From Gammaproteobacteria bacterium (GTDB taxonomy: Bacteria; Pseudomonadota; Gammaproteobacteria; Ga0077536): a DNA stretch of 38,565 nucleotides. Below, one piece after another: positions 1-37,324 of the stretch; positions within the stretch are counted from its first letter, which is position 1, and every line of letters starts with the position of its first letter. The notes beneath the pieces are model-generated. The model did no database searches and was not told where the DNA came from. It was given only the letters and a program-made list of their open reading frames with translations. A program made the position numbers and the translations under genes. Where the stretch lies: positions 1 to 38,565 of the forward strand of contig JAIEQK010000112.1 of assembly GCA_019747795.1 (NCBI GenBank). The letters are read 5' to 3'.

Positions 1-18
1 TACTTCGCCCCGCACGTT

Positions 19-77
19 GCGCCCGTAGCTCAGCTGGATAGAGTGCTGCCCTCCGAAGGCAGAGGTCGTGGGTTCGA
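19..77 (+). pseudogene. Partial tRNA-Arg(CCG), cut in the T-loop
   Basis: This is a copy of the first 59 nt of the intact tRNA-Arg at 220-296, without a single difference. It keeps the 5' acceptor strand, D-arm, CCG anticodon arm, variable loop and the T-arm up to TTCGA. At that point a 78-bp hairpin-rich element begins. ATCCCGCCG, the expected continuation, reappears only at 156-164, and the acceptor 3' strand and CCA are lost, so it cannot make a normal tRNA. The identity extends upstream to position 1, so the leader and part of the promoter are duplicated too, with an offset of 201 bp. Confidence 0.9.
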
Positions 78-155
78 CAACATCGCGAAGCGATGTTGGA
101 CGCCGCGCAGCGGCGCCCCGCAGGGGCGAGCATCCGCCCAAGCGGATGCGAGTCC
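78..155 (+). repeat. Four-hairpin element inserted in tRNA-Arg T-loop, copy 1
   Basis: Seventy-eight bases lie exactly between TTCGA (73-77) and ATCCCGCCG (156-164), which are adjacent in the intact tRNA. The insert reads as four consecutive stem-loops: CAACATCGC/GCGATGTTG with loop GAA; GCCGC/GCGGC with loop GCA; GCCCC/GGGGC with loop GCA; and GCATCCGC/GCGGATGC with loop CCAA. It ends in GCGAGTCC. It is too short to code for a protein. A same-length copy lies at 377-454, a shortened one at 1273-1326 and a degraded one near 4279-4332. I do not recognise it as a named family. Confidence 0.85.
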
Positions 156-199
156 ATCCCGCCGCGCGTCTCGACCCGTCGACCCGTGCCGAATCCCGC

Positions 200-205
200 T
201 ATACT
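200..205 (+). promoter_or_regulatory. Candidate -10 box of the tRNA-Arg gene
   Basis: TATACT lies 14 bp upstream of the mature tRNA 5' end. It is followed by a GC-rich stretch (CGCCCCGCACG), the type of discriminator seen at stable-RNA promoters. No convincing -35 box at a 16-18 bp spacing is visible. The equivalent box of the first tRNA copy is cut by the window start. Confidence 0.5.
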
Positions 206-219
206 TCGCCCCGCACGTT

Positions 220-296
220 GCGCCCGTAGCTCAGCTGGATAGAGTGCTGCCCTCCGAAGGCAGAGGTCGTGGGTTCGAATCCCGCCGGGCGCGCCA
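220..296 (+). tRNA. tRNA-Arg (anticodon CCG)
   Basis: This 77-nt cloverleaf has a 7-bp acceptor stem (GCGCCCG with CGGGCGC), a normal D-arm (TAGCTCAGCTGGATA), an anticodon stem CTGCC/GGCAG around loop CTCCGAA (anticodon CCG at positions 34-36, reading CGG), a T-arm GTGGG-TTCGAAT-CCCGC, discriminator G and an encoded CCA. It is the intact member of a tandem pair with the truncated copy at 19-77. Its last 18 nt recur exactly at 4333-4350. A 25-bp perfect hairpin begins inside its 3' end. Confidence 0.97.
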
Positions 297-343
297 TACA
301 AACGACAAGGGGGCCATCGGCCCCCTTGTCGTTTGTATGGCGC
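291..343 (+). terminator. Hairpin terminator of tRNA-Arg, 25-bp perfect stem
   Basis: Positions 291-315 and 319-343 are perfectly complementary around a 3-nt ATC loop. The left arm starts in the tRNA 3' end, including its CCA. There is no long T-run after the stem, but the inner part CAAGGGGGCC/GGCCCCCTTG followed by TCGTTTGT is terminator-like. Derivatives of the right arm (CCCCTTGTC.TTTGTA) follow element copies 2 and 3 at about 464-479 and 1335-1353. Confidence 0.75.
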
Positions 344-371
344 ACTCGGTGACCTTGGTCCTACCCACCGG

Positions 372-463
372 TTCGACAACATCGCGCAGCGATGCTGGAC
401 GCCGCGCAGCGGCCCCCCACAGGGGCGAGCATCCGCCGAAGCGGATGCGAGTCCATCCCGCCG
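372..463 (+). repeat. Four-hairpin tRNA-associated element, copy 2
   Basis: TTCGA (372-376), a 78-bp insert (377-454) and ATCCCGCCG (455-463) reproduce copy 1 with a few substitutions. Hairpin 4 keeps its stem and changes only the loop (CGAA); hairpin 1 has one mismatch. Upstream it has CCCACCGG in place of tRNA sequence. Downstream it runs straight into CCCCTTGTC.TTTGTA, like the 3' half of the tRNA terminator. It lies between the tRNA and the secreted-protein gene at 511-1077. Confidence 0.85.
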
Positions 464-510
464 CCCCTTGTCTTTTGTACCGAGATGCGATCTCAGCGAT
501 GTGAGATTGC

Positions 511-1077
511 TTAATCGAACGATCGGTTGGATATGCCCTGTGACACCCAGCGCGTGCGGCTACTGCAGGCGCCGGCCGAGCAATCGTAGGCCCCGGAAAA
601 CACCTGGATTCTCACCCTATTCAAGTCAGCGTTGGGCGCGTTGACTTGAACCAGGACAGGAACCTCTGCCGCAGTCGAATTGCCGCCTTGGTTGCATGCG
701 TAGTACTGCTGGGTCGCGACGCGTTGTCCGCTCAGGTTGAAGACCCGGACATCAAGTCTCGCGCAGTAGCGCTTCTTGGGATCAAGACCAGTCGCATCCA
801 TGTACAGCTTGCCAATCAGAGCCATCCTGACTCGGCCCTCGGCCCAGCACACTGCGGCCCTGCCAGTCGGTGCGCCATTGACATGAGGGCCACCGCCGAA
901 ATCTGCCGTCCTGCTGTTGATGAGAAGCATGTCTCCAGGTACGGAGTCAGTTACGAACCCACCTGCGTAGCATGCATCAACCGGGGTATAAGCCGTCGCT
1001 GACGAGGAGAAGAAAAGTGCTCCTCCCGCAAAGCAGGCCAGCGTCGCGATAAACGCGTGAAGCTTGGCGTTCATCAT
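511..1077 (-). CDS. Secreted hypothetical protein, 188 aa
   Basis: I do not recognise the family. The product starts with a clear Sec signal peptide (MMNAKLHAFIATLACFAGGA..., cleavage likely after ATA near residue 29), so it should be periplasmic or secreted. The mature part has at least six cysteines (for example VDACYAGG, YCARLDVRV, YYACNQGG, YDCSAGACSS), suggesting a small disulfide-bonded beta-rich domain. AAGGAG sits just upstream of an ATGATG start pair, so either methionine could be used. The gene appears less GC-rich than its neighbours by eye. It is bracketed by two same-orientation copies of the tRNA-associated element (372-463 and 1268-1334), which suggests it arrived as a cassette. 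It stands alone on the minus strand. Confidence 0.8.
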   Translation of the reverse strand: MMNAKLHAFIATLACFAGGALFFSSSATAYTPVDACYAGGFVTDSVPGDMLLINSRTADFGGGPHVNGAPTGRAAVCWAEGRVRMALIGKLYMDATGLDPKKRYCARLDVRVFNLSGQRVATQQYYACNQGGNSTAAEVPVLVQVNAPNADLNRVRIQVFSGAYDCSAGACSSRTRWVSQGISNRSFD

Positions 1078-1696
1078 TCACACTCCTTGTCAGTCCCATC
1101 ACTGGAGGGCAGTCAACTGCCGATGTCGCACCCTCCATTTCCAAGGTCCCAACGCGCGTCGGGGACAAGCAATGGACCGAATGCATTAGTTCTGAGCATA
1201 GCGGGCACCTGTTTTTTTTGCAAAAGCCTTAAAAAAGTCCGGGTTATGGCCTGGTTCGACCCACCGGTTCGACAGCTTGCCCGGCGGCCCCCAGGGGCGG
1301 GCATCCGTCGAAGCGGATGCGAGTCCACCCGCCGCCTGCTTGTTGTTTGTATGACCCACCGCTCCCGGTACCCGATCCGCCCCCCTTTCGCCGACCTCCA
1401 TCAGCGAGATCGAACCCCACGCTAAGCCCTCAACCCATTGCACCCGCATACGACCGCGCGCAACGCAGGTGCGAAGCGCACAGCTGATGCGCGCACGGTG
1501 CATGGCCATCCGATAACCAGCAATAGCAAACCTTTGATTCGCAGCTATTTGCCAGTTTGGCTCGTTCGTTGCTCCCGCCTTCTCTCAACCGTCGCAACCC
1601 GACGGCAGGCAGTCGATCCGTAACACAGCGGTGCGACTCGACCGTCTCGCGCCATTCGAGCGTGCGGACGCCAGAGTTCATGCGCCAAAGGAGAGA
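1078..1696. other. Long intergenic region holding element copy 3
   Basis: Apart from the element remnant at 1268-1334 I see no coding sequence. Positions 1211-1236 contain an oligo-T run and an A-rich stretch unusual for this GC-rich window. The open frames here have no ribosome-binding site or recognisable similarity and overlap each other. The region presumably carries the promoters of the divergent genes at 1077 and 1697, but no convincing -35/-10 pair is visible. Confidence 0.5.
1268..1334 (+). repeat. tRNA-associated element, copy 3 (shortened)
   Basis: TTCGA (1268-1272) is followed by 54 bp instead of 78. Hairpin 1 and part of hairpin 2 are missing, while hairpin 4 (GCATCCGT/GCGGATGC, loop CGAA) and GAGTCC are kept, then ACCCGCCG. 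As in copy 2, a CTTGTTGTTTGTATG string like the tRNA terminator's 3' arm follows. It is preceded by GGTTCGACCCACC, so CACCGGTTCGA upstream is shared with copy 2. Confidence 0.8.
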
Positions 1697-2959
1697 ATGA
1701 TGAGCTTCCAGATTCGAACCACGCAGGAAGCCGACCGGGTGAACCGCTGGGGAAGCGGTCTGCTCGTGGTCGCGCTGAGCGTAGCCATGTCCTGCGGGCC
1801 GGCTGTCGCTGGTGACCCACCGAAGAGCAAACCTTTCATCCATCATCTGAAGTCCACGCCCGAGACGACCAACCTGGGCGGCTTCATCATCGATTCGCCC
1901 TCGGTACTCGACATCAAGTCGGGTGACATCGTGCGAGTGGATGTCATCAACCAGTCCGGCGCCACGAGCGCAACGGTCGATCCGGTTGCCTTCTTCGGCG
2001 CGTTCGGCGTCAAGCCCGAAGAGGTGCTTCCCGATGCGATCAACTTCTGGAACAGCCTGCCCTCCAAGGTCCGCTACGGACCCCATATCCTGACCGGCCC
2101 GATCTACATCGAGGGCGCCGAGCCGGGCGACACGATCGAGCTCCAGATCCTGGACGTGTACCAGCGTGTTCCGTACGGCGTGAACAACACGGCGCCGCAG
2201 GGCGGCGTGTTGAGCACGACCTATCCGGGCTTCCGCGCGGGTGACGAGCCTCTCGACATCGCGCCGGCTCCCCCCGGCGCGCCGGGCGGGCTGTTCCCGG
2301 ACGTTCGGCAGCACGTCTACCGCACCGCGAAGGTGAAAGGCGAGGACGTGGCGCTGTTCTCGGACAACATACGAGTGCCGCTGCGGCCCTTCTTCGGGGT
2401 CATGGGCGTGGCGCCGCCGACCGGCCAGTTCATCGGCAACACCGAGGACTCGCCCCCGCCGGCCACCGGCGTCCAGAGCTCGACACAGCCCTGGAATTTC
2501 GGCGGAAACATCGACAGCCACGTGCTGCGCAAGGGGGCCAAGGTGTACTTCCCGGTGTTCCAGTCGGGCGCGCAGTTCTTCTTCGGCGACACTCACTCGG
2601 TGCAGGGCGACGGCGAGGTCAGCGGCACCGCGCTCGAGCATTCGCTCGCGGGCGTCTTCCGCTTCGTGCTCCACAAGAACACGGGCCAGGAGTGGCCGTG
2701 GGCCGAGAACAAGGACCACTACATCCTGATGGGCTTCCACTGGGATCTCGACCGGGCGATGCGCAACGCCACCATCGAAACCATCAAGTTCCTGACGGAA
2801 AAGATGGGCTTGACCGACGCGAAGGCGTTCTCGCTCGCGAGCATCGGCGTCGACTACGTCAACAGCGAAGTCGTGGACCGGACCCAGGTCGTCTCGGCCT
2901 TCATTCCGAAGCGGTACTTCCTGAAGAAGCCGGATTCGGTGGTGGGCGTGCCTGACTAG
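1697..2959 (+). CDS. Exported acetamidase/formamidase (FmdA/AmdA) family protein
   Basis: The 420-aa product has an N-terminal signal peptide ending near PAVAGDPP, then a full-length FmdA/AmdA-type domain. Family landmarks visible are GPIYIEGAEPGDTIELQILD, a PWNFGGNIDSH segment and GDTHSVQGDGEVSGTALEH. Characterised members hydrolyse formamide or short aliphatic amides to ammonia and the acid, and are usually cytoplasmic. A signal peptide here implies a periplasmic enzyme, and the natural substrate is unknown. GGAG at 1690-1693 supports the ATGATG start pair at 1697/1700; the longer open frame from 1631 lacks such support. A 17-bp stem-loop follows at 2983-3021. The gene lies inside the tRNA-bounded segment but its GC content looks typical of the window. 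Confidence 0.88.
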   Translation: MMSFQIRTTQEADRVNRWGSGLLVVALSVAMSCGPAVAGDPPKSKPFIHHLKSTPETTNLGGFIIDSPSVLDIKSGDIVRVDVINQSGATSATVDPVAFFGAFGVKPEEVLPDAINFWNSLPSKVRYGPHILTGPIYIEGAEPGDTIELQILDVYQRVPYGVNNTAPQGGVLSTTYPGFRAGDEPLDIAPAPPGAPGGLFPDVRQHVYRTAKVKGEDVALFSDNIRVPLRPFFGVMGVAPPTGQFIGNTEDSPPPATGVQSSTQPWNFGGNIDSHVLRKGAKVYFPVFQSGAQFFFGDTHSVQGDGEVSGTALEHSLAGVFRFVLHKNTGQEWPWAENKDHYILMGFHWDLDRAMRNATIETIKFLTEKMGLTDAKAFSLASIGVDYVNSEVVDRTQVVSAFIPKRYFLKKPDSVVGVPD

Positions 2960-2982
2960 GCCGCTCGGTACAGCAACCAATG

Positions 2983-3021
2983 GCGCAGATCGGGGCTGGC
3001 GCTTCCAGCCCCGACCTGCGC
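2983..3021 (+). terminator. Stem-loop after the amidase gene
   Basis: GCGCAGATCGGGGCTGG (2983-2999) pairs with CCAGCCCCGACCTGCGC (3005-3021) with a single mismatch and a short CGCTT loop. It lies between the amidase stop (2959) and the lipoprotein start (3036). No T-tract follows, so it may be a rho-independent-like terminator, an attenuator or an mRNA-stabilising hairpin. Confidence 0.6.
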
Positions 3022-3035
3022 GTCAGGAGCGAATC

Positions 3036-3605
3036 GTGAAGCGCCCCGAACTCGAAAAGCACCTGCTCCTCTGTGTCCTGTCCGTGCTGATGACGGCCTG
3101 CGGCAAGGCCCCGTCCGGCCCGGCTGCCGCGCTTACGAGCGCACCCGAGGTCGACCGGTCGATCGAGGTCGCCGTGGTCCCCTTCGGGCTCGCCGCGGGG
3201 ACCAGCCCGCCGCCCTACGACGTCGCCGAGATCATCCGCACCGATCTCGAGGCGCGCGGCGATCTCGCGACGACCGGACTCGCCGATCTGCCGGCCAGGC
3301 CAACGCGCCTGCGCGAGGTTGATTTCGCGACCTGGCGTGGCTCGAAGGCGGATTACCTCGTCGTCGGTCTCGTCGCGGGCGCGCACGACGGCGGGCACGA
3401 AGTCGAGTTCCGTCTGATCGATCCGCGCAAGGAGACGACGGTTGTCGGCTACATGATGCCGAGCGCGCCCGATGCGCTCGCGGTGACGTCCCACCAGATC
3501 GCGGATCTCATCCTCGAGAAGCTGCAACCGCGCGATGCCATGGGCGCGTCCCCGGGCGCGCAAGCGTCGTACGCGGCGGGCGACGCGCGATCTCGGAACC
3601 CGTGA
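3036..3605 (+). CDS. Lipoprotein with only a TolB N-terminal domain
   Basis: The 189-aa product has a signal peptide with a probable lipobox (LMTAC, Cys22) and then a TolB N-terminal-like domain at about residues 40-165: IEVAVVPFG, AEIIRTDLEARGDL, FATWRGSKADYLVVGLV, RLIDPRKETTVVGYMM and SHQIADLILEKL. In TolB, which works with Pal at the outer membrane, this domain is followed by a six-bladed beta-propeller. Here the frame stops about 20 residues after the domain and the propeller is absent. A minus-strand pseudogene begins 9 bp later, so the gene may have been truncated by rearrangement. It could also be a stand-alone domain of the kind used in other envelope lipoproteins. GGAG lies upstream of the start (CAGGAGCGAATCGTG). 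Confidence 0.75.
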   Translation: MKRPELEKHLLLCVLSVLMTACGKAPSGPAAALTSAPEVDRSIEVAVVPFGLAAGTSPPPYDVAEIIRTDLEARGDLATTGLADLPARPTRLREVDFATWRGSKADYLVVGLVAGAHDGGHEVEFRLIDPRKETTVVGYMMPSAPDALAVTSHQIADLILEKLQPRDAMGASPGAQASYAAGDARSRNP

Positions 3606-3614
3606 ACGGTTGGA

Positions 3615-3894
3615 CTAGAACCCGTCCACCTGACGCAGCGCATCCACGAGCTGCGCCCGCATTCGCCACCGCGTGCCGGCGCCGAGGCTCTGGTCGCGAT
3701 CCGGCAGGGCGATCATGGACAGCCACATCGACGAGCCCTGCACGCGATCGAAAGGCTGGCTGAGCCTGGCCTCGGCCAGCGTGCGGCCAGGCAGGGCGTG
3801 CCGGCGCGCGCCGGAGGGCCGCCAGACTCAGCCGGTTCTTGGCGCCCACCTGCTCCTCGAGCGAGAGATAGCGATGCGGGCCATTGCGATGCAA
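3615..3894 (-). pseudogene. Degraded paralogue of the 192-aa gene at 7370-7948
   Basis: Read on the minus strand, the last 54 codons before TAG (3615-3617) give LAEARLSQPFDRVQGSSMWL, then SMIALPDRDQSLGAGTRWRM and a matching tail ending QVDGF. This is nearly the same as the C-terminus of the intact protein encoded at 7370-7948. Upstream, VGAKNRL is recognisable (about 3830-3850) but in a different frame. About 35 residues between the two blocks are missing, and no intact N-terminus is present. So this is a copy broken by an internal deletion and frameshift, lying in the same orientation as its intact relative. Confidence 0.85.
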
Positions 3895-3948
3895 AGAAGC
3901 CGCTGTCGGCCGAGATCGAATCGCTGGCGCTTGCAGCGCGGGCTCAGT

Positions 3949-4182
3949 TCAGCGGGGCGTGAGCGCGAGGTCTCCGATCGCGAGCCGACGTCCCGGCCCG
4001 CTGTAGCATGCATCCGGCATGGCGGTCATAACGACCGTGATGGTGCATTCGTCGAGCGGCTTGGGGCGCGCGTGAAACGGCAGGTCGTCGTAGTGAGCCC
4101 ACTGTTAGGGCGTGTCGTAGCCCTGGGCCGCGTAATACACACGCGAGCGCTCCATGTAGTCGACGGCTGTGCGGTTTGTCAT
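3949..4182 (-). pseudogene. N-terminal fragment of a GrdB-like reductase-family protein
   Basis: From ATG at 4182 the minus strand reads MTNRTAVDYMERSRVYYAAQ, then GYDTP, a TAA stop, and continues in frame with QWAHYDDLPFHARPKPLDEC and TITVVMTAMPDACYSGPG until TGA at 3949. The coherent reading across the stop resembles, from memory, the beginning of proteobacterial proteins annotated as the glycine/sarcosine/betaine reductase selenoprotein B family (PF07355), where a tyrosine is expected at the stop position. Most of the family's length is missing. I see no basis for recoding, as TAA is not a selenocysteine codon. Family assignment is moderate; pseudogene status is stronger. Confidence 0.65.
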
Positions 4183-4274
4183 GCGCCGTCCTCCGCATCC
4201 AGACCTCGATGCATGGCGCGAGCTTCCGAGCCTCGCATTGCCGGGCACGCGCCTGAACTATCCGTCCGACCGAC

Positions 4275-4350
4275 TTCGCGCGCAGGGCGCTGGCCCGCAG
4301 GGGCGAGCATCCGCTCGAGCGCACGCGCGTCCATCCCGCCGGGCGCGCCA
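4275..4350 (+). repeat. Element copy 4 with an exact tRNA-Arg 3' end (attR-like)
   Basis: TTCG at 4275-4278 is followed by degraded hairpins. GGCCCGCAGGGGCGAGCATCC is still clear, and GCGTCC precedes ATCCCGCCGGGCGCGCCA at 4333-4350. Those last 18 nt are identical to positions 279-296 of the tRNA-Arg gene, including the CCA. No tRNA 5' portion precedes them. This is what the distal attachment site of an island integrated in the tRNA 3' end would look like. Confidence 0.8.
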
Positions 4351-4415
4351 TCCGACGCCGCACGTGTTTCCAGGCGACGCGGCACCCCGTCACGTTCGAC
4401 CCGATACCGGCTTGC

Positions 4416-7124
4416 TCAGCCTGCGTTCGCGGCCAGCGCCATGCCCACCGCCTGCAGCAGCGCGTGGGCCTCTATTGGTTTCTGCAAGTAGGCAAAGGCG
4501 CCGGAGTCGCGGGCTGGCGTGCCATCCAGGAATGGGCTGTAGCCGGACATGATGATGGCGGGCAGGTGCGGGCGGGCCTCGTGCAACCGGGTGACGAACT
4601 CCATGCCGCTCATGTCCGGCATGGTCTGATCGGTGATGACCAGGTCCACTTCGCGTTCACCGGCCAGGAGCTCGGTGAGCGCGCGTTGCGGTTCATGGAA
4701 GGTGTGGACACGGTAACCCTCGAGATCGAGCAGCTCCGCGACAAACAGCGCCACCGTGGGCTCATCGTCGACGACCAGGATGGTGCCACCCGCGGCCGGC
4801 GGTCGCGCTGTCGCCGGCGGAGGCTGGTATTCGCGAACGGGTTCGGCCGCCAGGGGCAGGAGGATCTCGAAGACCGAGCCCTGGCCGGGCGCGCTGTCCA
4901 GCCTCACGTGTCCGCTCAGCCGATGCGCGATGCCGTGGACCATCGACAGGCCCATGCCGGTGCCCTCGCCCAGCGCCTTGGTCGTGTAGAACGGTTCGAA
5001 GATGCGCGCCTGGATTTCGGGCGCGATGCCCGGGCCGTCATCCCGCAGGGCGATGACGACAAAATCTCCATCGAAGTCCTGCTGGCAGGACGCGCAGCGT
5101 GCCGCGTGCACTCTGCGACGTTCGAGTTCGAGGGTGAGATGGCCGGTGCCCGCCATCGCGTCCCGCGCATTGATGCAGAGATTCATGATGACCTGCTGCA
5201 GCTGGACTGGATCGGCCATCACCAGGGGCAGGTAGCTGTCCGCCCGGAGCTCGACGTTGATACTGGCGGGCAGGGTCGGGCGAAGCAGTTTGATCGACTG
5301 CGCAGCGACCTGCTCGACGGAGGTCGCGGACAGTTCGCTTTCCTCCTGGCGGCTGAAGGCGAGCAGTTGCTGCACCAGGTCCCGCGCCCGCTGACCGCCC
5401 GACTGGATCTCGCGAATATAGCCGGCGAGCCTGTCGCCCATGTCGTGGCCGAAGCGCATGAGCGCCAGATCGGCATAACCGAGGATGCCGGCCAGGATGT
5501 TGTTGAAGTCGTGCGCGACGCCGCCGGTGAGCTGACCGATGGCTTCCATCTTCTGCGCTTGCTGGAGCTGACGGCGAAGCAGTTCCGTGGCAGCTTCGCC
5601 CTCTTTGCGTGTGGTTATGTCAGCGGTGACACCGATGATGGTCGACCCCGTACGACGGGCGCGCGCCTCGAACCACCGGATGCCCTCGACGGGGTGCGAA
5701 ATCCTGAATTCAGCGCTGCGCATGTGGGACGCGGGGGAATAGACCAGCATTTCGTGCAGCGCCAGGGCCACGGCATCGCGGTCTTCGGCGTAAATCAGCG
5801 CGAGGACCTCTTCGAGACGCCATGGGCCCATGCCCGGCAGGCCGACGAGACTTGCGAACACGTCGTGGGACTGGAACATCGACGTTTCGACACTCATTTC
5901 CCAGGTCGCCATGCGCGCGACGTCCAGCGCCAGGAGCAGGCGTGAACGCGCCGCGCGGAGTTCGTCCGCGGCCATCTGCATGCTGTTCACATCGAAGACG
6001 AGGCCGCTGACCTTGCCGCCTCCCTTGCCGTCCAAACGCGTCGCATAGCGTACTTCGGTCCAATGCCAGCGGCCGTCCGCCTGTCGGACACGGTAGCGGA
6101 AGGTATTGGACGGTCCGTCACCGGGAACGCCGTTCAGCGCGTGGCTCATTGCGCGCAGGCTGTCGGGATAGGCGGAATGGCGCTGGAGATCCTCGGGGTG
6201 TACGCGAGCCGCCAGGGTTTCGAAATAGATCGGCTGCTCGCTGGGCTCGATGCCGTAGAGACGCCACAGGGAGCGCGAGCCACTGACCTCTGTGGAGTTG
6301 ATATCACGTTCGAACCAGGCCACACCGGCCTGGTCCATTGCGAGTTCGAATTTCGCTCCCCGTGCCTTGGTCGAGGTGACGTCGGAGATCAGGCCGTAGG
6401 TGCGCACCGGATCGGTGACACGCTCGACGCGGTAGCGGATCTCGATCTCGAGCGGCTGACCGTCCCGGCGCATGATCCGATAACTGGCGACATGCGTCGC
6501 GGTCAGGGCATCCTCGGCGGCCGTGACGGCCTGCACGTCTTGCCGGCGACGCTCGCGCTCCAGCGGTTCGAGGCGCTCCATGAACGTCTCGTAGTCCCAG
6601 GGACCAACCGGGTCATCGAGGTCGTACATTTGCGCGAGCACCGGCGACCCATGGACCGTCGTGCCCTCGCGCTCGTACCAGGCGATGCGCGCATGGTCGA
6701 GGGCATCGAAGATGCGCTCCTCGCGCTGACGCAGCTTGCGCGAGGTGTGCTCGAAGTCGTCGACCTCGGTCAGCGTGCCGACGATCCGGCCCGGCCGACC
6801 GTCAGCGTCGAAATCGTGCGCCTGGGCGCGGGCCAGAATCCAGGTTTCATCCCGCGGCGTCGAGCGGGCGATGCGCAGCGTGCATTCGCATCGCGGTTCG
6901 CCTCCCTGGCGCAGCGATTCGCCGAGTGCCATGACCTTTGCGCGGTCGTCGGGATGCACGTGCGCCCACCAGGTCGCGTCGTCCATGAACTCCGGGCCAT
7001 TCGACAAGCCCAGCAGCGCACGACCGGCGTCGGTCGATCGCCAGCCGCGGCTGACGTCCCACTCGAACACGAAATGACCGAGCGCTTCCAGGTCCCGGGA
7101 GGCAAGTTCGATGTTGAAGGGCAT
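4416..7124 (-). CDS. Cytoplasmic hybrid sensor histidine kinase, 4 PAS + REC
   Basis: The 902-aa product has no signal or membrane segment. Four PAS-like domains occupy about residues 10-125, 135-255, 258-383 and 395-508. They are followed by a HisKA domain with the phospho-acceptor His538 in GGVAHDFNNILAGILGYADL. The HATPase has its N-box (QVIMNLCINARDAM), G1 (DDGPGIA), F-box (FEPFYTT) and G2 (GTGMGLSMVHG). A C-terminal receiver domain has acidic pocket VVDDEP, phospho-Asp832 in ITDQTMPD and Lys882. Family members pass phosphate from His to the fused Asp and often onward to a separate regulator, but none is adjacent. Cys677 and Cys680 lie within the ATPase domain. The ATG at 7124 with GGAAGA upstream is preferred over TTG at 7151. 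The sensed signal is unknown. Confidence 0.93.
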   Translation of the reverse strand: MPFNIELASRDLEALGHFVFEWDVSRGWRSTDAGRALLGLSNGPEFMDDATWWAHVHPDDRAKVMALGESLRQGGEPRCECTLRIARSTPRDETWILARAQAHDFDADGRPGRIVGTLTEVDDFEHTSRKLRQREERIFDALDHARIAWYEREGTTVHGSPVLAQMYDLDDPVGPWDYETFMERLEPLERERRRQDVQAVTAAEDALTATHVASYRIMRRDGQPLEIEIRYRVERVTDPVRTYGLISDVTSTKARGAKFELAMDQAGVAWFERDINSTEVSGSRSLWRLYGIEPSEQPIYFETLAARVHPEDLQRHSAYPDSLRAMSHALNGVPGDGPSNTFRYRVRQADGRWHWTEVRYATRLDGKGGGKVSGLVFDVNSMQMAADELRAARSRLLLALDVARMATWEMSVETSMFQSHDVFASLVGLPGMGPWRLEEVLALIYAEDRDAVALALHEMLVYSPASHMRSAEFRISHPVEGIRWFEARARRTGSTIIGVTADITTRKEGEAATELLRRQLQQAQKMEAIGQLTGGVAHDFNNILAGILGYADLALMRFGHDMGDRLAGYIREIQSGGQRARDLVQQLLAFSRQEESELSATSVEQVAAQSIKLLRPTLPASINVELRADSYLPLVMADPVQLQQVIMNLCINARDAMAGTGHLTLELERRRVHAARCASCQQDFDGDFVVIALRDDGPGIAPEIQARIFEPFYTTKALGEGTGMGLSMVHGIAHRLSGHVRLDSAPGQGSVFEILLPLAAEPVREYQPPPATARPPAAGGTILVVDDEPTVALFVAELLDLEGYRVHTFHEPQRALTELLAGEREVDLVITDQTMPDMSGMEFVTRLHEARPHLPAIIMSGYSPFLDGTPARDSGAFAYLQKPIEAHALLQAVGMALAANAG

Positions 7125-7369
7125 GACTCGGTCTTCCGGGCAACGCGTCAATGTATCGTCGATGCCCGACTGGACTTAACCCCATTCCCTCGAGCCTGAG
7201 CCGCGACTCTACTATGTATCCAAGGCGTTGCAGAGGACCGCGCGCTCCAATTCGCGCGCGCAGCCGGGCTGCGGCGTCCGGGTTTTCGTCGTTTACAGCG
7301 TTGCCATCGAATCCCCGCCACCGGCCGCTGCGTGCCGTGCCGTGACGGGCGAAGCGGGGCGCCTTCGGA

Positions 7370-7948
7370 TCAGAACCCCCCCACCTGTACCAACGCCGCT
7401 GCCAGCTGCGGTCGCATCTGCCAGCGCGTGTCGGCGCCGAGGCTCTGCTCGCGATCCGGCACGGCCAGCATGGACAGCCACATCGGCGAGCCCTGCACGC
7501 GATCGAAGGGCTGGAACAGCATGGCTTCGGCGAGCATGCGTCCGAGCAGCGAGTACTGGGTGCGCGCGCTGGCCCAGGAACGGCAGCCGGACACTTCGGC
7601 CAGGGCTTCGCCCGAGAGGGTGCAGGCCGGCGCCTTGCGATGGGCGGTCAGCATCAGCCGGTTCTTGGCGCCCACGGATTTCGCATGCCAGGCGAGCGCG
7701 CGACCGTAGGCCTGCTGATCGGGATAGGGCACGGCATCGCGTTCGACTTCGAGCGTGATCGAGGCATCGACGCGCGCGCACAGCAGTTCCAGCACGCTGT
7801 CCTCCGAGGTCCCCGTGAGCGAGGCGATTTCGCGGCCATCGCTCCAGGCCTTGCCGAGCGCGCCGCTGACCGTTCGGCAGACGATCAGGGATGCGCCGCG
7901 ATAGGCCTCGCGCCGACGCTCGTACTTGGTGGCTTCTGGTTTCTTCAT
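7370..7948 (-). CDS. Conserved-looking hypothetical protein, 192 aa
   Basis: I do not recognise the family. The start is supported by AGGAG seven bases upstream of ATG. The product is a soluble protein beginning with a basic segment (MKKPEATKYERRREAY) and ending in LAEAMLFQPFDRVQGSPMWL plus a basic tail. There is no signal peptide or membrane segment. A degraded copy with a very similar C-terminus lies at 3615-3894, so the gene has been duplicated and one copy lost. The histidine kinase gene lies between the two. The upstream gene at 7988-8365 ends 39 bp before the start on the same strand, so they probably form one transcript. The preserved C-terminal block in the dead copy is the best handle for a homology search. 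Confidence 0.75.
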   Translation of the reverse strand: MKKPEATKYERRREAYRGASLIVCRTVSGALGKAWSDGREIASLTGTSEDSVLELLCARVDASITLEVERDAVPYPDQQAYGRALAWHAKSVGAKNRLMLTAHRKAPACTLSGEALAEVSGCRSWASARTQYSLLGRMLAEAMLFQPFDRVQGSPMWLSMLAVPDREQSLGADTRWQMRPQLAAALVQVGGF

Positions 7949-26962: not shown

Positions 26963-27017
26963 CGGTGTAGTGGGTGGCGGGACAGATCGTCATGCGCCCA
27001 CCGACCCATGAGACCCC

Positions 27018-27570
27018 GTCATTCCTGGGCAGGCAGGAATCCATGGGCTCCGCCGATCGTCGATGGCTCCTCACTTGCGCGAGGATGATGGGGTCGTGGA
27101 TGGTGGCGAAGGGCTTTACGCATCCGCACCCGCCTCGCCTCGCCCCGTCATGCCTGCGCAAGCAGGAATCCATGGGCTCCGCCGAGCGTCGATGGATATT
27201 CACTTGCGCGAGGATTATGGGGTCGTGGGTGGTGGCGAAGGACTTCACGCATCCACACCCGCCTCAACCCGTCATTCCTGCGCAAGCAGGAATCCATGGG
27301 CTCCGCCGATCGTCGATGGATATTCACTTGCGCGAGGACGATGGGAACTGGGTGGGGGCGACGGACTTCACGCATCCACACCCGCCTCGCCCCGTCATGC
27401 CTGCGCAAGCAGGAATCCACGGGCTCCGCCGAGCGTCGATGGCTCCTCTCTTGCGCGAGGACGATGGGAAGTGGGTGGGGGCGAAGGACTTTACGCATCC
27501 ACCCCCGCCTCAACCCGTCATTCCTGCGCAAGCAGGAATCCATGGGCCTTGCCGAACGCCCATGAGCTCT
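27018..27570 (+). repeat. Tandem array of about 123-129-bp units
   Basis: Units begin with GTCATNCCTG at 27018, 27147, 27271, 27394 and 27517; the fifth is cut after about 55 bp. Spacings are 129, 124, 123 and 123 bp. Each unit has the hairpin CCTGCGCAAGCAGG followed by AATCCATGGGCTCCGCCGA, a GTCGATGG block, TTGCGCGAGGA and a TTCACGCATCCACACCCGCCT end. Units differ by a few substitutions, so the array is fairly young. The core is a well-known dispersed repeat of proteobacteria whose translation gives PVIPAQAGIH. It is not CRISPR, as there are no unique spacers. It lies directly upstream of the dioxygenase gene. Confidence 0.9.
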
Positions 27571-37224: not shown

Positions 37225-37324
37225 ATTGTAGGTCGGACTGAAGTCCGACATTCCTTTCTGCGCATTATCGGCGGCGATCCCCCCTGAAACGGGGGGAATG
37301 TCGGACTGAAGTCCGACCTACAAT
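37225..37324. repeat. REP-like inverted pair (BIME-like)
   Basis: Two 30-nt arms (37225-37254 and 37295-37324) are inverted copies, differing only in the 2-nt loop. Each arm is itself a palindrome: TGTAGGTCGGACT-GA-AGTCCGACA. Between them lies CCCCCC-TGAAAC-GGGGGG (about 37279-37296), a third hairpin. A related single unit is at 12007-12024. The pair sits in the divergent spacer between two amidohydrolase genes, 30 bp before one start and 30 bp before the other. Confidence 0.88.

Follow-up and report, generated by a model that had tools for sequence, protein, structure and literature searches.

The repeats of the E. coli tyrT locus are old and unexplained, with primary papers dating from the 1970s-90s; a search of the open literature for tyrT/rtT repeats yielded mentions only. 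The tyrT/tyrV locus has the order tRNA, unit, tRNA, and three further units, each unit ending in nucleotides (nt) 59-76 of tRNA-Tyr; the Rfam family RtT (RF00391) covers these units. Strains carry from zero to about five units per locus. Strain E7-1N7 has zero units, and its tRNA end runs straight into the flank found after the last K-12 tail; some other strains retain one unit, and the joins in strains with 0, 1, or 4 units are precise at the 18-mer formed by nt 59-76. These precise joins in E7-1N7 and the one-unit strains thus identify the units as cassettes bounded by the 18-nt repeat. The variation in unit number could reflect homologous loss or gain between the repeats instead of movement. 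The ST131 strain 2017_APHA (locus L189) has no RtT unit adjacent to tRNA-Tyr, and genes of the fatty-acid and sterol desaturase families follow the tRNA end there.

IS200/IS605-type elements insert on the 3' side of a short motif and do not duplicate their target. CGTC-tagged REPs, including the Rickettsia palindromic elements (RPEs; RPE-4 and RPE-6), occur as in-frame gene inserts and have no known transposase; they are palindromes of 20-40 nt, folded as a single stem-loop or a dimer, with GACG (=CGTC) adjoining the unbranched stem (PMC3733652).

The window analysed here is a 38,565-nt stretch that makes up one whole contig (C294). Its intact tRNA-Arg(CCG) ends in the 18-mer ATCCCGCCGGGCGCGCCA, which recurs exactly about 4 kb downstream without a tRNA 5' half. 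The initial annotation took this pair for the bounds of a relic island that had lost its recombinase. Both copies lie where it placed them. It had also raised the prospect that the match might be frequent by chance, which is ruled out because the 5.94-Mb genome holds these two exact copies of the 18-mer and no further one, even when one mismatch is allowed. The features of this part of the window are as follows, with scores in bits from two models, R1 and R2, that are described below.

1-77, plus strand: second copy of tRNA-Arg(CCG) nt 1-58 (19-77), preceded by a duplicate of the 18 nt upstream of the tRNA (1-18); all 77 nt repeat 202-278 exactly
78-155, plus strand: E1, a hairpin element within the T-loop of this broken tRNA (R1 102.7 bits, R2 70.9 bits)
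156-164, plus strand: tail of E1, ATCCCGCCG
220-296, plus strand: intact tRNA-Arg(CCG), found by ARAGORN and Rfam tRNA; nt 59-76 at 279-296
285-349, plus strand: terminator-like hairpin; its 3' arm continues into sequence complementary to the tRNA acceptor end (inverted repeat I1, 31-nt arms, 94%)
354-463, plus strand: trailing unit, with a leader containing GGTTCGA (354-376), E2 (377-454), and tail ATCCCGCCG (455-463) (R1 92.4 bits, R2 58.5 bits)
511-1077, minus strand: 188-aa ORF without a Pfam match and of lower GC (0.587 versus 0.686 for the window)
about 1250-1335, plus strand: E3, a shortened copy with stems B and C largely lost and a degenerate tail (R1 37.0 bits)
1700-2959, plus strand: acetamidase/formamidase family gene FmdA_AmdA (PF03069)
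3036-3605, plus strand: TolB N-terminal-domain protein (TolB_N), 189 aa (PF04052)
3612-3849: degenerate second copy of 7367-7675 (about 80% identity)
4247 to about 4332-4336, plus strand: E4, a degenerate distal copy (R1 27.7 bits)
4333-4350, plus strand: tail of E4, an exact copy (18/18) of tRNA-Arg(CCG) nt 59-76

A multi-hairpin element of ~80 nt, here called E, thus occurs four times in the window, always on the plus strand, which confirms the several copies of one structured element that had been noticed earlier. At E1 the order is tRNA nt 1-58, E, and then ATCCCGCCG, so that the tRNA copy is broken by E immediately after the T-loop TTCGA. E4 consists of a leader (GAACTATCCGTCCGA), degenerate hairpins, and then the 18-mer; the tails of E1-E3 are degenerate. 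The break in the tRNA copy at 19-77 and the E element immediately ahead of 4333 had escaped the initial annotation. An Rfam search of the window returned no family at gathering score besides tRNA. The RtT model had no match in window positions 1-4500 even at E values up to 10, and its gathering score of 45 bits is not reached by the window elements. The repeated stretch 1-77 lies at the contig start and has the length of a k-mer that assemblers commonly use, so the contig edge may conceal further 201-bp units. An assembly artefact is an unlikely source of E1 itself, since a congener (G002, locus L104) has the same broken tRNA copy upstream of its intact tRNA-Arg(CCG).

E is widespread, and most copies follow tRNA genes. 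A pattern for the first hairpin matched 31 contigs in GTDB species genomes, among them Woeseiaceae, Microbulbifer, Nevskiales, and Burkholderiales; one of these (L060) looks like a chance match in a gene, and a reversed control pattern had zero matches in 96 genomes. Of 229 genomes from the class, 74 contain E according to model R1, which was built from 24 elements with E. coli left out. R1 also recovered all four E. coli tyrT/RtT units in register, at 24.4 to 16.7 bits (E values of 7e-5 to 7e-3 in 40 kb). Model R2, built from 42 cores without flanks, was run on 299 genomes from the phylum and found E in 47, the majority of them outside the class; one E. coli unit went into R2, which therefore gives no independent check on the E. 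coli link. No DNA match to consensus-like E was found in plasmids and phages.

A tRNA is present at 25 of the 29 best class loci, mostly just upstream and on the same strand, and three of the remaining four loci start near a contig edge. The tRNAs that precede E include those for Ser, Arg, Gln, Glu, Asp, and Tyr. Further broken tRNA copies stand upstream of the intact gene at L129 (Arg TCG), L067 (Ser GCT), L201 (Gln TTG), and L196 (Ser CGA), and the broken copies carry E between TTCGA or CTCGA and the next A. At L196 the element sits in the anticodon loop (ACTCGA, then E, then A), behind the TCGA that also precedes E in the T-loop sites. The tails provide a second line of evidence. Their identity to the tRNA begins at A59 and often ends at the CCA end; 12 of 47 tails match their own tRNA at all 18 positions, as do the tails behind tRNA-Ser at two loci from the R2 phylum search (L263 and L264, 18/18). 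With the shared ATCCC set aside, tails agree with their own tRNA at 7.83 of 13 positions, compared with 5.23 for shuffled partners (0 of 10000 shuffles). Tandem arrays of about 150-217 bp occur at tRNA loci, and the E leader is able to pair both with the tRNA end and with the tail.

E also occurs away from tRNAs. In two genomes, G170 and G159, it lies inside long ORFs. The 16 in-ORF copies examined are about 72 or 75 nt long (model matches of 72-76 nt, with one shared A at the end), nearly all are stop-free within the long frame, and both orientations occur. The BREX-3 locus of G170 (L238, C1:1266500-1284500) encodes BrxF, BrxC, PglX, BrxHI, and PglZ and contains about a dozen copies, in BrxF, BrxC, BrxHI, PglZ, and a neighbouring gene. 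Several of these correspond to in-frame gaps of 24-25 aa relative to uninterrupted homologues from Leisingera and Roseicitreum plasmids, which are 52-78% identical for most genes. By this comparison the copies look tolerated in otherwise full-length BREX proteins. Further copies are located between genes or form part of a dispersed repeat about 250 bp long. When strict T-loop sites are excluded, E has GA as its left flank in 36 of 46 cases and CA in 7 of 46, some of the 46 still being tRNA-linked, and the BrxC and PglZ junctions suggest that the left-flank letters are host sequence. BREX genes with and without E offer a ready insertion set from which the target rule and the mechanism can be read.

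A rival account holds that simple tandem duplication, together with template switching at the 3' ends of tRNAs, made these repeats without a mobile element. It would explain arrays of about 150-217 bp, inverted T-arm leaders, and tails equal to the local tRNA. However, one string of hairpins recurs at unrelated tRNAs, in an anticodon loop, at intergenic sites, and in BREX genes, and slippage at tRNA ends would not yield E at such varied sites; this explanation is very improbable.

The layout of E is stem B, GGACG or GAACG, stem C, CCCC-GNA-GGGG, and stem D, over about 67-90 nt, and the cores, which comprise several stems, span about 63-104 nt. GGACG follows stem B, and GGACGCC is invariant in alignment A1. 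A GNA triloop is common in stem B and is not a universal rule. Stems B and D covary, as 92.8% of cells are paired and 168 cells are changed on both sides, compared with 43 in shuffles; the covariation score for the two stems is 0.818 versus 0.216, and the signal is lost when partners are slid by one base. G-U pairs make up only 4 of 503 paired cells in E, compared with 141 of 2262 in the tRNA stems of the same loci (p = 1e-8). This combination of strong covariation with a near absence of G-U pairs favours a DNA hairpin over an RNA, the hairpin being maintained either through selection or through the correction of imperfect palindromes. The scarcity of G-U pairs could stem from such correction rather than from selection or transposition.

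These data also weigh on a possible role for E as a functional trailer RNA of tRNA transcripts, in which the hairpins and an anti-acceptor leader would control termination or 3' processing, the tail would serve as a decoy of the tRNA end, and selection would hold E behind tRNAs. Its position on the same strand behind tRNAs in many genera agrees with such a role, as does the ability of the leader to pair with the tRNA end and tail, and RtT appears as an sRNA in E. coli annotation and as an RNA family in Rfam. Nevertheless, G-U pairs are almost absent, E is also found at intragenic and intergenic sites and in an anticodon loop, and there are E. coli strains with zero units. A trailer RNA is consequently a rather improbable account of E.

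The genes between the two 18-mers fit part of the island reading. The GC-poorer gene that had been singled out earlier is the ORF at 511-1077, the TolB-domain gene is real, and so is the degenerate duplicate at 3612-3849, whose counterpart (7367-7675) lies on the far side of a histidine kinase gene. FmdA was not found in 22 relatives from the same family; given this absence and the low GC of the ORF at 511-1077, the genes between the two 18-mers look accessory. They are situated between E2, E3, and E4. No orthologous locus was found in relatives by way of the histidine kinase flank or FmdA, and the empty sites observed are those of E. coli tyrT.

One explanation is integration of a tyrosine-recombinase element at the 3' end of tRNA-Arg; this element would have brought in the ORF, FmdA, and TolB_N, left 18-nt att repeats, and lost its recombinase, with E as an incidental feature. 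The exact and unique repeat, the accessory genes, and the presence of islands at other tRNAs of this genome are in keeping with this. On another contig of the same genome (L034, C319), a tRNA-Arg(ACG) has a recombinase-like frame beside it, and on a third (L010, C298) a displaced 3' half of tRNA-Arg(ACG) is followed by its terminator and then by E; the two are the probable ends of a real tRNA island. There the displaced end carries the terminator before E, whereas the distal copy in the window is preceded by E and lacks its own tRNA terminator behind it. Furthermore, the 4 kb contains no recombinase gene or remnant (among the ORFs of 1-4400, with Pfam searches of the main ones), the block is divided by E2, E3, and E4, and similar tails occur at dozens of loci that have no island. 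An integrative origin is therefore unlikely. What stands of the earlier claim is that the repeat is not due to chance and that the genes it encloses look accessory; the precise empty sites that this kind of repeat has in E. coli also fit it. An integrase-made island with a lost recombinase is not supported. On its own, a tRNA 3' end that recurs at a distance does not mark an island boundary.

The best reading of the 4 kb is an E array anchored on tRNA-Arg(CCG) and interrupted by accessory genes. A comparable array lies behind tRNA-Ser(GGA) in another genome (L193, G149, C11), where an LRR protein, a MazE-like antitoxin, and a HigB/HTH pair are encoded between the units, much as genes lie between E copies in the window. 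The distal 18-mer at 4333-4350 is probably the tail of the palindromic element E, as part of this array, with E inserting after nGA.

According to the proposed mechanism, E would be a non-autonomous palindromic mobile element, similar to RtT and to the CGTC-REPs and RPEs, that enters DNA 3' of nGA and leaves no visible target duplication. In tRNA genes it would enter the T-loop after TTCGA, between A58 and A59, or, in one case, the anticodon loop between CTCGA and A. Such an insertion would break that tRNA copy, and E would therefore persist only beside an intact one. The survivors would be broken tRNAs upstream or trailing units downstream, the latter composed of the tRNA end, a terminator, an inverted T-arm, GGTTCGA, E, and nt 59-76. 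Whole units may come and go at the 18-nt repeat as precise cassettes, which is the pattern seen at E. coli tyrT, and the genes of the window may have come into the array later. The candidate mobility may involve single-stranded DNA and perhaps a Y1/HUH transposase supplied in trans. Y1 transposases (PF01797) are present in 10 of 11 E-bearing genomes and were not found in G089, which has E; this absence and the degenerate tails of E1-E3 in the window count against the mechanism.

A broader proposal is more tentative, with a chance of being right that falls somewhat short of even. The tyrT repeats, their tRNA-trailing relatives in many gammaproteobacteria and other proteobacteria, and the in-frame gene palindromes may form one family of mobile DNA hairpins that targets nGA, above all the universal T-loop site between TTCGA and A, is moved as single strands by some enzyme, and builds tRNA-anchored arrays that can take in genes. 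This proposal would join things that have been described apart, namely tRNA-trailing repeats (tyrT/RtT), in-frame REP-like palindromes, and small tandem arrays behind tRNAs. It also offers an origin for the tyrT repeats that is testable in laboratory E. coli, whose strains range from zero to four units.

Each known system resembles E in some respects. Like integrative elements at tRNA 3' ends, the window has a direct repeat of the tRNA end that starts from the T-loop and leaves the tRNA intact, but the E unit is under 220 bp, has no integrase, and has its repeat preceded by a conserved string of hairpins. IS200/IS605 and RAYT-mobilised elements are likewise hairpin DNA inserted on the 3' side of a short motif with no target duplication, and the GA left flank in 36 of 46 cases and the clean in-frame joins of E agree with Y1/HUH-type insertion; unlike these elements, E is not tied to a cognate transposase. 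AaHKsRNA22 of Aggregatibacter (RF02902) has the same run of hairpins and matches E1 over its full length, but at 29.2 bits, below the gathering score of 39.8 bits, and E1 was accordingly rejected as a member of that family. The 178-bp tyrT repeats and RtT RNA (RF00391; rttR, tpr) share with E tandem units behind a tRNA, the same hairpin order, GGTTCGA ahead of the hairpins, tRNA nt 59-76 behind them, and an R1 match in register. In the window this arrangement is seen as hairpin units behind a tRNA and in the 18/18 tail of E4, but the units follow tRNA-Arg, differ in sequence, are interrupted by genes, and are not matched by the RtT model.

The window also contains REP-like repeats. Five tandem units of about 123-129 bp at 26967-27564, each with CGTCATTCCTGCGCAAGCAGGAATCCA, fit a canonical CGTC-tagged REP with a tag, an 8-bp stem, and a CCA tail, and an inverted pair of GTAGGTCGGACTNNAGTCCGAC palindromes 40 nt apart at 37225-37324 is a GTAG-type REP dimer. 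The nearest published kind to E itself is the CGTC-tagged REPs, including the Rickettsia RPEs. E has the GACG tag (as GGACG) next to stem B and, like the Rickettsia palindromic elements, is inserted in frame in protein genes, in G170 and G159 though not in the window. In contrast to the 20-40-nt REPs, E is longer and composite, with four stems, and its sites in tRNA loops and its tRNA-end tails are features of E not reported for CGTC-tagged REPs in PMC3733652.
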